DNA from: Candidatus Zixiibacteriota bacterium
GTDB lineage: Bacteria > RBG-13-66-14 > B26-G2 > WVWN01
DNA length: 61,119 bases
Assembly: GCA_030613505.1 (NCBI GenBank)
Contig: JAUWLW010000013.1
Coordinates: 1-61,119 of the forward strand
Direction of reading: 5' to 3'
Under the pieces are notes generated by a model, which was given only the letters and a program-made list of their open reading frames with translations, had not been told where the DNA came from and made no database searches. Both the position numbers and the translations under genes were made by a program. Of this stretch, positions 4,224-61,119 are shown in pieces (position 1 is the first letter of the stretch; each line of letters starts with the position of its first letter).

Positions 4224-5960
<1,737 letters not shown>

Positions 5961-50017: not shown

Positions 50018-50082
50018 ATAAGCGCAAAGAAGAGGGTTCGGTTTATAAAACGGGGCTTTAATTATTGACAAGGAGGTCGGAG

Positions 50083-51918
50083 ATGCGTATTTTAATAGTA
50101 ACCGTTGGGGTCGTAGCGTTAATAATGGCTACGGCCTCGACCGTTTACGCGCGTACGAGTTACGAACCGGGCGTGATATTGGTTAAGTTCAAGGACGTAT
50201 TGGAAGGCGGGGGCCGAAACCCGCTAGAAACCCAATACCCAACGGTAAATAAGCTGAATGAGAGATACGGCGTTACGAAGATCTACCAGATATACGATTT
50301 CCTTCCGACCGAGCCTACCCGCCACCCGCACGGTAAATGGGAATGGCGCCATTGGCTCGAGGTAATGGAGAAGTTCCGTTACGACACTTATTACCATGTC
50401 GAGTTCGACAAACGTTACGACCCAAAGGTAGTAGCCGCGCAATACAAAAAGGACCCGAACGTCGACTTGGCCGAACCTAATTACTATGGCTACGTTTGCG
50501 GCCTTTATCCCGACGACCCTTATATGTTCCCGCCCTACGGCTATTTTTTTAAACAATGGAACTTGGACAACGACTACGGCGAATACGGTTACGCGGGCGT
50601 GGACATAGACGCGCCCCAGGCGTGGGAAGAATATTGGGACCCGTACTTCCCGCCCGTAGGGTTTTGGCCTAAGGTCGTGATATTCGATACCGGTTGCGTA
50701 GACCATTGGGACGGCACCTCCGAGTACTACCATCCGGACCTTGTGAATTGGATAGACTACGATTTGTCCTGGGATTTGGTTGAAGGCGACGAAGCGCCCC
50801 AAGACGAATGTGGCCACGGAACGATGGTAGCGGGTATAATAGGTGGGCACACGGACAACCATTTCGGTATCGCCGGCCTTTCGTGGAACGTAACGCGGAT
50901 AGGGATAATAAGGGTAACCGAGTGCCACGAGGAGCCTTTCGAAGACGAGGCCGTAGGAGTTGGTATAGTGTGGGCGGCTTTAAACGGCGCCGACGTCATC
51001 AATTTCTCGCTCGGCCAGCCGATGTATTCCGAGTTTCTACATAAAGCTTGCGAGGGCGCGTACGAGATGGGCGTAGTAATGGTAGCGGCACGCGGAAACC
51101 GCGGGACCGAAGAGCTTTTCTACCCGGCGTCGTTTCCGCAGTGTATAGCCGTAACCGGCCTAACTCCTTGGAATAACAAGGCACCTATGTCCAGTTGGGG
51201 CTGGGATACCGAGTGTACCGCGCCCGGGCTCCATATATTTAGCACTACCCGGACCCCCCCGTGTTTTTGTTTTAAGGGTGCGCTGCCGATCCAAAGATAT
51301 TTTAATTGGACCGACGGAGAGAACCCCGACGAAGGCGGTACTTCGTTCGCCGCGGCCCACGTTTCGGCGACTTGTGGTATTATCGCAGCCGCGTGCCCCT
51401 GGGCGTTCGACCCGCCCGGCGGCCTTATTGAACAGTGGGTGCGTCCTATCTTGCACGCGTCGTGCGTGGATATAGGGCCCCCCGGCGTGGACGAATATTT
51501 CGGGCACGGACGCTTGAACCTAAAAAACGCGTGCGACCTGGCGTTCGCTTACGCAGGCGACGAAACCGGGGCCGGCCCGGTGGCTGCCGCCGGCCCCGAC
51601 GGTGCGGCGTCCGCGGCGGCTTGTACGCCGGCTGAAGAACGGCCGTATTTTCGCTGTTATCCCAACCCCGCGGACGGGCCTATAAAGCTAACCGGCTTTT
51701 TAGGTTTTGATAAGCCCGCGGCCTCCGTCGACGTAAAAGTCTATGATTTAAGCGGGCGTTGCGTTAACGCGTTTACCGTCCCGACGTTAGGCAGTAGTTA
51801 CTCGCTTAGTTGGGATTTGACGGCCCGAGACGGTTCAAGGGTTCCGCCGGGTGTTTACGTTATTACGGCGTCCGCCGGCAGCGAGAGGTACGCGAGAAAA
51901 GTCGTCGTCGCTCGTTAG
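50083..51918 (+). CDS. secreted subtilisin-family (S8) serine protease with C-terminal sorting domain
   Basis: 611 residues; ATG at 50083 after AAGGAGG. Signal peptide (about 1-23), an N-terminal prodomain-like region (about 27-135), then the S8 catalytic domain with D202 (VIFDTGC), H245 (CGHGTMVAG), oxyanion N339 (ARGN) and S421 (GGTSFAAAHVS). The C-terminus (about 525-611) is an Ig-like type A sorting domain (YPNPADG..VKVYDLSGR..PPGVYVITA..KVVVAR), as exported through type IX-like systems. Its promoter carries a G10 tract. It is followed seven bases later by a lipoprotein gene. Confidence 0.92.
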   Translation: MRILIVTVGVVALIMATASTVYARTSYEPGVILVKFKDVLEGGGRNPLETQYPTVNKLNERYGVTKIYQIYDFLPTEPTRHPHGKWEWRHWLEVMEKFRYDTYYHVEFDKRYDPKVVAAQYKKDPNVDLAEPNYYGYVCGLYPDDPYMFPPYGYFFKQWNLDNDYGEYGYAGVDIDAPQAWEEYWDPYFPPVGFWPKVVIFDTGCVDHWDGTSEYYHPDLVNWIDYDLSWDLVEGDEAPQDECGHGTMVAGIIGGHTDNHFGIAGLSWNVTRIGIIRVTECHEEPFEDEAVGVGIVWAALNGADVINFSLGQPMYSEFLHKACEGAYEMGVVMVAARGNRGTEELFYPASFPQCIAVTGLTPWNNKAPMSSWGWDTECTAPGLHIFSTTRTPPCFCFKGALPIQRYFNWTDGENPDEGGTSFAAAHVSATCGIIAAACPWAFDPPGGLIEQWVRPILHASCVDIGPPGVDEYFGHGRLNLKNACDLAFAYAGDETGAGPVAAAGPDGAASAAACTPAEERPYFRCYPNPADGPIKLTGFLGFDKPAASVDVKVYDLSGRCVNAFTVPTLGSSYSLSWDLTARDGSRVPPGVYVITASAGSERYARKVVVAR

Positions 51919-58585: not shown

Positions 58586-58780
58586 CTATTTTACGACCGC
58601 CACTTTCGCCGTCGCCGCGGCGTCGCCGGCCGCAAGACGCAATATATAAATCCCCGGCGACAGGTCCGCCGTGCCGAGCTCCCACGCGCCCGGGCCCGGG
58701 CGAGGGGTGTTTTTTACCGGCGGGGGAGAAAATGGTTGACCATTTATGACTATTTTGATAATAATTAACGACGGTAACAT
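58586..58780 (-). pseudogene. remnant: C-terminal sorting-domain tail of a lost secreted protein
   Basis: A 64-codon minus-strand frame whose last 33 residues (WELGTADLSPGIYILRL..AATAKVAVVK) match the end of an Ig-like type A sorting domain: the SPG(I/V)Y.LRL strand followed by the KVAVVK end strand. The upstream part (to 58780) is not recognisable as protein and has no signal peptide. The gene therefore looks truncated, with only its 3' end left. It lies in a 363-base stretch (58522-58884) that otherwise holds only the ABC terminator and an AT-rich leader region. Confidence 0.55.
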
Positions 58781-58884: not shown

Positions 58885-59511
58885 GTGACGATGCGAAATC
58901 CTTACACAACGTTCGTGAATACGGCCGCGGCGTTTTTATTCGTCTTCTTCGGGTTCGCCGGCACGGTCGCGGCGTACCCGCCGGCCGTAGGGATAGCCGG
59001 CAAGGCCACCTCATGTCTCGCCTGCCACGCCGACAACGGCCCCTGGCTGGGGGAGGAGAAGGTCGTCATCGACGTTATAGACAAAGGTACGATGACCTCC
59101 CTGCGGCAAACGGACGGTACGTTCTTGCTCGAGGCCGAGCGAGGCGCGCGACGAACCGTTATTACGGTCATCGGGTGGATGAAGGACGGGGACGTAGCGC
59201 CCCCCGAGAAAAACGCGTGGCTCTACGTGGACCCGGCCCGTATCGATACGGACTCCCTTTCGAAATTCGCGCCCGGGTGGGGGGTAAACTTGCCGATGGC
59301 CTGTCGTCTGATCGGCGATAAGCTGGAAGGTTTCGAGGGCGCATATATTACGGCGCTCCCGATGAAGGTCCAGGCCTTTGACGGCGCCGGTACTACCGAG
59401 CTGGTCCTACAAGTGATGTTGACCAGGGGCCAGGGCGCCAAGGGGAACCCGAACGATGGCCTGGTCGCGAACTACTTCGAGCGTAAGGTGGTCCTCAAGG
59501 TGCGCGATTGA
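58885..59511 (+). CDS. secreted monohaem c-type cytochrome-like protein
   Basis: 206-208 residues (GTG at 58885, five bases after GGAGG, or ATG two codons later). N-terminal export helix to about 30. Directly after it is a single haem site SCLACHADNGPWLGEE near 44-58. The remaining 150 residues are beta-rich without further CxxCH motifs (VIDVIDKGTM..LLEAERGARRTVITVIGW), like the Ig-like haem-domain combinations seen in some cytochromes of respiratory or sulfur enzymes. Not assignable to a named family. It has a good ribosome site but no strong promoter. The tandem array begins about 35 bases after it. Confidence 0.7.
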   Translation: MTMRNPYTTFVNTAAAFLFVFFGFAGTVAAYPPAVGIAGKATSCLACHADNGPWLGEEKVVIDVIDKGTMTSLRQTDGTFLLEAERGARRTVITVIGWMKDGDVAPPEKNAWLYVDPARIDTDSLSKFAPGWGVNLPMACRLIGDKLEGFEGAYITALPMKVQAFDGAGTTELVLQVMLTRGQGAKGNPNDGLVANYFERKVVLKVRD

Positions 59512-59547
59512 AATTATGGCCGGCGGTTGACGGGCCCCAATGCGTTG

Positions 59548-59616
59548 GCGTACGCCCGCGGCGCGACCTCGGTCCTCCCGGCGAGCGTCGGGAAGATAAA
59601 GGCGATTTACCGGTAA
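59548..59616 (+). pseudogene. array copy 0: 3'-end remnant of a tandem secreted-protein gene
   Basis: About 22 codons encoding ARGATSVLPASVGKIKAIYR and stop, almost the same as the end of copy 1 (60558-60626) at an offset of exactly 1010 bases. No start codon, signal peptide or body precedes it, so the copy is a remnant left by deletion at the array edge. Confidence 0.8.
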
Positions 59617-59786
59617 ATACGGCCGCCTTGTTACGGGGGCGGAATATAGGGTTTCAATAACTTATACGGCGCCTTCGACGTAGGCGGCAATGGCGCGGAA
59701 ACGGGGGGGCTTGACATAGGCGTCAAATACTGTTATAAATTATTTTGACGGAGGCATTAGCCATATAGCGTTGGAGGTGTAAACCG
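59617..59786 (+). repeat. array intergenic unit 1 (97% identical to 60627-60796)
   Basis: The 170-base spacer after copy 0 repeats after copy 1 with only about five mismatches. It contains G7 (59703-59709), the promoter, an AT-rich leader and GGAGGTG. It defines a direct repeat of period 1010 bases. Confidence 0.9.
59711..59739 (+). promoter_or_regulatory. array promoter 1 with overlapping dyad
   Basis: TTGACA (59711-59716), 17 bp, TATAAA (59734-59739). TTGAC-ATAGGC-GTCAA (59711-59726) is an inverted repeat covering the -35. Another TTTGACG half-site lies at about 59744. G7 sits directly upstream of the -35. Confidence 0.7.
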
Positions 59787-60626
59787 ATGAGAAAAATAAT
59801 TGCCGTAGTCTGCATGGCGGCGTTGGCGACTTGCGCTTACGCGGAGGTTGGGTCCGTTATCAGCTCGTTCTATATTGGGAAGACGGTCGAACCCACGAGT
59901 TATTTCGCCGCGATATACCGCGACCCGGCGTACGTTTATTCTTTCTGGAATTACATCGACACGGCTTACCTGCGTACGTACACCCCATCGGGTTCCCAGG
60001 TTAATAACGTATACCTGGCGTCATCTACCTATCCGGGCGACATGACCGGTTGCCACCTGGGCGCCCCGTATTTCGCGTTCTCCGGTACCGAGTCGGACAA
60101 AATATATTTCGCGAGAACTGATAACGCGTCAGTACTCCAGTCCTTCCCGGCCAAGGGCCCGGGAGGACGGGACCCGTACGACATAATGTGGGACGGCCGG
60201 TACTACCACGTCCATTCCGCGACCGGCGTCTACAATTTATACACGCCGGCCGGGGCGCTGGCCGGGCAGTGGACCGTGGCCGGGTGGCCGGCCGGGATGA
60301 GAGCCGGGGGTTCGGCCTTTTCCAAGTCTTTCAACAACGCCGGCGGCCGGTACCTTTTCGTAGTTTCCAGCCGCGACGATTTACATTACGTTTTCAATAT
60401 GGGAAGTGGTTCTCTACTGGCCTCGTGGGGTATGGTTACTGAGTATTCGCGCGGCCAAAATTACGGCGACGCGTACCCGGCGTCGTACGGCGGCGCCCTC
60501 TGGTACCACGGTTACTTAACCCAACCCCCCCACGAACATTGGGCTTACCAGATCGACGTCAACGCCCGCGGCGCCGCCTCGGTCGTCCCCGCGAGTATCG
60601 GGAAGATAAAAGCTATTTACCGGTAA
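59787..60626 (+). CDS. array copy 1: secreted beta-propeller-like protein, unknown function
   Basis: A 279-residue protein with signal peptide MRKIIAVVCMAALATCAYA. The mature part is Tyr/Gly/Ser-rich with repeated blade-like segments (YVYSFWNYID.., YDIMWDGRYYHVHSATGVYNLYTPAG, YLFVVSSRDDLHYVFN). It ends ASVVPASIGKIKAIYR, the candidate C-terminal tag. GGAGGTG precedes the ATG. It is the only complete member of the array in this window. The family is unknown to me; a propeller fold is inference from the repeat pattern. Confidence 0.8.
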   Translation: MRKIIAVVCMAALATCAYAEVGSVISSFYIGKTVEPTSYFAAIYRDPAYVYSFWNYIDTAYLRTYTPSGSQVNNVYLASSTYPGDMTGCHLGAPYFAFSGTESDKIYFARTDNASVLQSFPAKGPGGRDPYDIMWDGRYYHVHSATGVYNLYTPAGALAGQWTVAGWPAGMRAGGSAFSKSFNNAGGRYLFVVSSRDDLHYVFNMGSGSLLASWGMVTEYSRGQNYGDAYPASYGGALWYHGYLTQPPHEHWAYQIDVNARGAASVVPASIGKIKAIYR

Positions 60627-60796
60627 ATACGGCCGCCTTGTTACGGGCGCGGAATATAGGGTTTCAATAACTTATACGGCGCCTTCGACGTAGGCGGCAA
60701 TGGCGCGGAAACGGGGGGGCTTGACATAGGCGTCAAATACTGTTATAAATTATTTTGACGGAGGCATTAACCCTATAGCGTTGGAGGTGTAAAAAG
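60627..60796 (+). repeat. array intergenic unit 2
   Basis: Second copy of the array spacer, offset exactly 1010 bases from the first, with G7 at 60713-60719. Confidence 0.9.
60721..60749 (+). promoter_or_regulatory. array promoter 2
   Basis: TTGACA (60721-60726), 17 bp, TATAAA (60744-60749); identical to array promoter 1, including the TTGAC/GTCAA dyad. Confidence 0.7.
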
Positions 60797-61119
60797 ATGA
60801 GAAAAATAATTACCGTAGTCTGCGTGGCGGCGTTCGCGACGTGCGCTTACGCGGAGGTTGGGTCCGTTATTAGTTCTTTTTATTTAGGGACCTCGGGCAT
60901 ATACGATTGGTGGTGGTTCGGGATTTACCGGGACCCTTCTTACGTGTATTGCATCCATCATCAGCTTAGCGGCGTTAACCTGTATTTTTATACGCCTGGG
61001 GGATCGCGTCAGGGGTATGTCCCTATTTATTCCGGGACAATCTCTTATTACGGCGACTCGGACCGCTGTCACTTGGGGGCGGGTTATATCGCGTGGATGG
61101 CAGACGGTCTTCTCATTTT
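60797..61119 (+). CDS. array copy 2: secreted protein, 3' end beyond the window
   Basis: 107 codons are present, open to the window edge. The signal peptide and first mature residues (MRKIITVVCVAAFATCAYA, then EVGSVISSFY) nearly equal copy 1. Afterwards the sequence diverges strongly (GTSGIYDWWWFGIYRDPSYVYCIHH), keeping only spaced motifs such as IYRDP.YVY, YTP.GS and CHLGA. This pattern fits duplicated genes whose mature part has diversified while the regulatory and export parts stayed conserved. Confidence 0.8.
   Translation, partial: MRKIITVVCVAAFATCAYAEVGSVISSFYLGTSGIYDWWWFGIYRDPSYVYCIHHQLSGVNLYFYTPGGSRQGYVPIYSGTISYYGDSDRCHLGAGYIAWMADGLLI

Follow-up and report, generated by a model that had tools for sequence, protein, structure and literature searches.

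The type IX secretion (T9SS) signals described previously belong to types A, B and C and are about 100 residues or more in length. Types B and C are alternatives to type A, and more than one class of signal therefore exists (PMC10202324, PMC12618676). For export of GFP in P. gingivalis, the final 22 residues of a type A C-terminal domain (CTD) have been shown to be enough (PMC4804311). A second relevant group of systems comprises the recombining tandem families of surface proteins, whose common features are homogenised ends, a divergent middle and tandem copies. The locus described here appears to bring both together: judged from sequence, it is on balance probable that it represents a recombining young tandem of a surface-propeller family whose members carry a short C-terminal sorting signal, likely of type IX.

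The window that was analysed is the entire contig C96 (61,119 bases) of a Candidatus Coatesbacteria MAG (G000; 2.86 Mb in 100 contigs), and its right edge therefore coincides with the end of the contig (Table 1). The tandem is seen at this end of the assembled contig, where an assembly error is possible. No Pfam or NCBIfam family was found for the window proteins.

Table 1. Features of the locus, and identity between the two repeat copies at an offset of 1010 bases, by position in the window.
Feature	Positions	Strand	Remarks
617-aa ORF with type A-like T9SS C-terminal domain end	50065–51918	+	ends in VPPGVYVITASAGSERYARKVVVAR, then stop
C-terminal remnant of type A T9SS-CTD protein gene, truncated	58586–58702	-	ends in LSPGIYILRLAAGDAAATAKVAVVK, then stop; left border of synteny break
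Unrelated secreted protein P0003	58885–59511	+	one CxxCH motif; in replaced interval
Copy 0, 3' remnant	59551–59616	+	21 codons and stop, tag included; ends in SVLPASVGKIKAIYR, then stop
Spacer 1	59617–59786	+	stem-loop, promoter, RBS; 165/170 identical to spacer 2
RNA hairpin at start of spacer 1	59617–59710		predicted stable, fold z -2.85
Sigma-70-like promoter in spacer 1	59711–59716, 59734–59739		TTGACA, 17 nt, TATAAA
RBS in spacer 1	59773–59777		GGAGG
Copy 1 (P0001), complete gene	59787–60626	+	279 aa; signal peptide about 1–19, five-bladed beta-propeller about 20–262, C-terminal tag
C-terminal tag of copy 1	60579–60626	+	SVVPASIGKIKAIYR, then stop; pLDDT <50 in propeller model
Spacer 2	60627–60796	+	copy of spacer 1
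Copy 2 (P0002), 5' part	60797–61119	+	107 aa, cut by contig end; near-identical signal peptide, diverged mature part
Identity, offset 1010	59501–59550		18%
Identity, offset 1010, gene tail	59551–59616		57/66 (86%)
Identity, offset 1010	59617–59636		100%
Identity, offset 1010	59637–59757		120/121
Identity, offset 1010	59758–59786		86%
Identity, offset 1010, gene head	59787–59861		70/75 (93%)
Identity, offset 1010	59862–59961		55%
Identity, offset 1010	59962–60108		32%

The repeat is a segment of about 310 bases, composed of a gene tail, a spacer and a signal-peptide head, which is present in two copies 1010 bases apart. Over 59552–59851, 283 of 300 positions match at an offset of 1010, compared with 64–99 at neighbouring offsets. 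The offset in the "exact 1010-base period" of the preliminary description is thus real, but it measures the distance between two copies of about 310 bases and is not a repeated unit. Computed along the unit, identity drops sharply on both sides of the segment (to 18–55% at fixed offset, and then to chance level). The longest identical run between the two spacers is 121 nt, and the earlier statements that the spacers are about 97% identical over 170 bases, and that promoters, ribosome sites and signal peptides are nearly the same, were both borne out by the identities in Table 1.

The promoter of spacer 1 was not listed by a generic promoter scanner, which applies its own rules, and the hairpin at the spacer start, for which a search of Rfam returned no family, is possibly a terminator or processing element. 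The presence of a promoter, an RBS and a stable stem-loop inside the spacer is what purifying selection on a regulatory element, rather than recent copying, would draw upon to explain the identity of the spacers. That explanation is very improbable, given that about 100 paralogues in the genome do without this spacer, that the 121-nt identical run spans the sequence between the motifs, and that Rfam offers no match. The spacer is also absent from every other contig of the genome, which argues against a common regulatory constraint.

The mature parts are strongly diverged, as had been described: that of copy 2 is 42.7% identical to copy 1, compared with 40.8–42.9% for its next-best paralogues elsewhere, which include the single gene at the syntenic locus of a related genome, G003. 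A spacer difference of 3% cannot date the same event as this mature divergence, suggesting that the ends were homogenised or the middle was replaced. Equal rates of divergence in mature domains and spacers, which the preliminary description had proposed as evidence against its reading, were not seen (43% versus 97% identity). Two other arrays of the family, G000:C10 and G003:C70, show mosaic identity, with bodies that are 36–98% identical in 45-base windows and last stretches of about 90–130 bases that are mostly 84–100% identical. Where copies compared within these arrays encode the same residue, the codons are identical in about 76% of cases in the last 36 codons versus about 57% mid-gene (arrays pooled; the pairs are not independent). 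Surface proteins often evolve fast, and a tandem duplication whose mature domains then diverged very fast under selection, with no recombination, would also leave a tandem arrangement. It is nonetheless a highly unlikely account of a noncoding spacer that differs by 3% beside mature parts that are as different as unrelated paralogues, indels included, and it fits neither the sharp fall of identity on both flanks nor the mosaic patches in the other arrays.

Local recombination or conversion of the ends thus appears to be the best reading of the tail–spacer–head repeat, and a well-supported one. Unequal crossing-over or gene conversion would be anchored in the tail–spacer–head segments, and the ends would be homogenised by recombination while the divergent mature domains are shuffled or retained. 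Most tandem arrays of the family in the genus have random spacers and lack conserved ones, suggesting that the pair in the window is a local and recent event and not the rule. The proposal of recombination-driven amplification and diversification is therefore partly supported: recombination is well backed for this pair, where a noncoding spacer at 97% lies beside mature parts at 43%, and by the mosaics elsewhere, but conserved spacers are missing from most arrays. Its corollary, that the conserved ends result from recombination, is also supported but has to share the explanation with a second cause, namely what these ends encode: a signal peptide at the 5' end and, at the 3' end, a C-terminal tag that is conserved as protein and shared by unrelated proteins. 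A tandem array alone would be ordinary. Here the ends appear to be homogenised and the centres diverged by recombination, as in a recombining repertoire.

The left border of the array was compared with the syntenic locus in G003, which holds a single gene copy. The alignment with G003:C59 is unbroken to 58702, inside the gene with a type A T9SS C terminus, whose remnant corresponds to a 701-aa ORF that is intact in G003:C59 and ends similarly. It resumes at 59572–59619, on the tail of the single tagged gene of G003, and between 58702 and 59572 the source genome carries P0003, which has no counterpart in the other three genomes of the genus. Of the remaining relatives, neither G001, where the contig is short, nor G002 showed a copy adjoining the ABC genes. 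Copy 0 looks like a truncated descendant of the ancestral gene. Its earlier interpretation as a deletion by the same recombination agrees with the synteny as far as truncation is concerned, but the breakpoint lies in coding sequence and not in the spacer.

The tandem genes belong to a lineage-specific family of Sec-exported five-bladed beta-propellers. A profile of 38 members gave 103, 91, 92 and 95 matches in G000, G001, G002 and G003, respectively, in a search run without an outside control, in which some matches may be generic propellers. Paralogues are spread throughout the source genome and are also present in G001, G002 and G003, many of them in tandem and several at contig edges. P0001 and P0002 both have an N-terminal Sec signal peptide, as predicted from sequence and as is found in T9SS substrates. 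The AlphaFold2 model of P0001, built on a 38-sequence alignment, is a propeller of 20 strands (pLDDT 87.8) that ends at about residue 262, and the last 15 residues are modelled at pLDDT <50 with no secondary structure. The closest solved folds are the five-bladed glutaminyl cyclases and the C-terminal domain of YjiK (Z 19–21 over about 212 residues), which have the same fold at only 7–11% identity, a likeness that is a statement about fold alone and not about function or enzyme activity.

When all full-length family members are aligned, the same motif is found at the stop codon, and its Coatesbacteria form, AVxP[AT]S[LVIF]G[RK]VKAL[FY]R-stop, comprises about 15 residues. A search with a degenerate DNA pattern that covers the final eight residues and the stop returned 85, 74, 67 and 84 tag sites in G000, G001, G002 and G003, respectively, and 0–1 per genome with the reversed control. 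At the 194 non-redundant sites, residues -15 to -9, which lie outside the search pattern, are conserved as well (V in 166, P in 186 and S in 190), codon positions 1 and 2 are more informative than position 3, and the 60 bases 3' of the stop hold almost no information. The stop directly follows the core motif in 198 of 200 cases. Third codon positions and the bases after the stop vary freely, and a DNA element or the end of a mobile element was rejected as an identity for the tag on these grounds. The carriers of the tag form 17 body clusters, which include A1-type propellers, NHL propellers, cupredoxins and several unnamed folds, and the tag is common to more than ten unrelated body types. By a lenient heuristic, signal-peptide-like N-termini occur in 143 of 155 long tagged ORFs versus 136 of 285 control ORFs. 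Conservation that is bound to the stop and acts at the protein level, together with the unrelated exported bodies, shows the tag to be a C-terminal signal that exported proteins carry at the protein level.

In propeller members, the tag comes directly after the last strand, and the motif might be taken for a closing propeller strand conserved for folding. This has a probability close to nil: the poorly modelled tag lies outside the fold, and it is also carried by cupredoxins, beta-helices, choice-of-anchor J and FnIII-like bodies, a presence on unrelated folds by which the closing-strand reading is refuted in general. P0001 has no NCBIfam match at E ≤ 1, and thus none to the 72-position TIGR04183 model; in ten further tagged proteins, no CTD model gave a match at E ≤ 5. 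The tag is without a matching model in Pfam (2025) or NCBIfam (June 2026), and a literature search found no paper with the motif strings of the tag and nothing relevant on Coatesbacteria secretion. The tag is probably a new form of C-terminal sorting signal, the secretion route of which is unproven.

Outside Coatesbacteria, a broader tag pattern matches 53 of 386 genomes. Other phyla have a Trp form, [ST]WGx[IV]K[AS][LM][YF]R-stop, with as many as 44 copies in one genome, and sampled regions of these genomes encode diverse secreted proteins, including ones with a choice-of-anchor J domain or a beta-helix. A Phe form, which lies between the Leu and Trp forms, was observed on a secreted protein of an unclassified MAG (L123:5640–6455, + strand; end PTSFGNVKALFR) and on one of a Krumholzibacteriia MAG (L106 near 5635–5673, - strand; end PASFGRVKALFR). 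A single-copy secreted protein of about 140–150 aa, with an FnIII-like body and the fixed end TWG[SA]IKA[MLI]FR-stop, was also observed in many SprA-positive phyla (L244–L252, L254 and L255; for example, L247:2922–3335, + strand). No confident Pfam or NCBIfam model was found for this protein, which could be a component linked to the tag pathway; a single-sequence structure model of a tagged FnIII-like protein is poor (pLDDT 50).

The N-terminal SprA domain SprA_N (PF14349) occurs in 107 of the 386 genomes; of the 53 genomes with a match to the broad tag, 47 have it. The six others consist of two incomplete Coatesbacteria and four genomes with a single chance-like match, of which one ends in TGG, one has stop codons and none has the Trp or Leu form. 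The nominal Fisher p for the co-occurrence is 5e-24, with related genomes that are not independent, and the association is confounded by phylogeny. In the source genome, SprA is located at C76:39639–40121 (34 bits against a cut-off of 27) within a 1958-codon frame. Searches for SprA_N found none in G002 (78% complete) or in G004 (89% complete). Type A CTDs are abundant in the same genomes, with 29–48 per genome in the genus, and the tag is thus at most a second signal. In a small sample of 21 regex-selected ORFs, no body family was found in which the tag and a type A CTD occur as alternative ends.

It is possible, though rather unlikely, that the tag is a sorting or processing signal outside the type IX route, which would be read by a factor for anchoring, proteolysis or insertion into the outer membrane that is widespread in these phyla. 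Such a reader would suit a tag that is far shorter than, and matches no model of, type A, B or C CTDs, in genomes that already use many type A CTDs, and it would also suit the 60 SprA-positive genomes in which the broad pattern has no match. These points are opposed by the strong co-occurrence with SprA, by the sufficiency of a 22-residue C-terminal piece as a T9SS signal (PMC4804311), and by the basic residue, hydrophobics and C-terminal Arg of the tag, which resemble the last strand of the type A CTDs of these genomes (ending AKRMVVVR-stop).

In the type IX reading preferred here, the locus would be a tandem of local and recent origin within a large lineage-specific family of surface proteins, whose members have a Sec signal peptide for export and a predicted five-bladed propeller fold and end in the 15-residue tag. 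The tag would direct these proteins either through the outer membrane or onto it, with the type IX machinery (SprA) of the genome as the most likely route, standing in place of the CTDs of about 70–100 residues as a stand-alone minimal version of the type A CTD end that would be read by SprA or by a shuttle. The evidence tips slightly towards [ST]-[LVIFW]-G-x-[VIL]-K-[AS]-[LIM]-[FY]-R-COOH being an undescribed and very short class of sorting signal (about 15 residues). Coatesbacteria (67–85 proteins per genome) and several other SprA-bearing phyla would use it as a minimal signal, their second, for type IX secretion or anchoring, and in Coatesbacteria it would serve a recombining family of about 100 surface propellers. 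Should the tag prove to be a minimal export signal, it would mark out, in little-known phyla, a secretome that present annotation leaves unflagged and that amounts to dozens of proteins per genome, and would show how short a signal of type IX kind can be. With one peptide on many cargos, the tag provides a ready test bench, and the tandem would be an example of recombination that holds the export ends constant while the exposed domain varies.

Compared with antigenic and binding repertoires, to which the array had been likened, the resemblance is one of sequence alone, and a binding repertoire is unproven. The PEP-CTERM, MYXO-CTERM and GlyGly-CTERM signals are, like the tag, short, lineage-specific and found at the C-terminus of dozens of unrelated exported proteins. 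However, in them a motif is accompanied by a transmembrane helix and a basic tail, whereas the tag lacks any transmembrane stretch and its last residues are [FY]R; no hydrophobic helix was found in the last 24 residues at the 194 tag sites, where the proteins end at the motif. Type B (TIGR04131) and type C (ChiA-like) CTDs are about 100–235 residues long and have no NCBIfam match here. The type A CTD (TIGR04183/PF18962) shares with the tag a C-terminal position on many unrelated Sec-exported proteins in SprA-positive genomes. It forms an Ig-like beta-sandwich of about 70–100 residues, in contrast to a tag of about 15 residues that directly follows the body and matches no model, but the two have similar ends, in which hydrophobics follow a basic residue and precede a final basic one.
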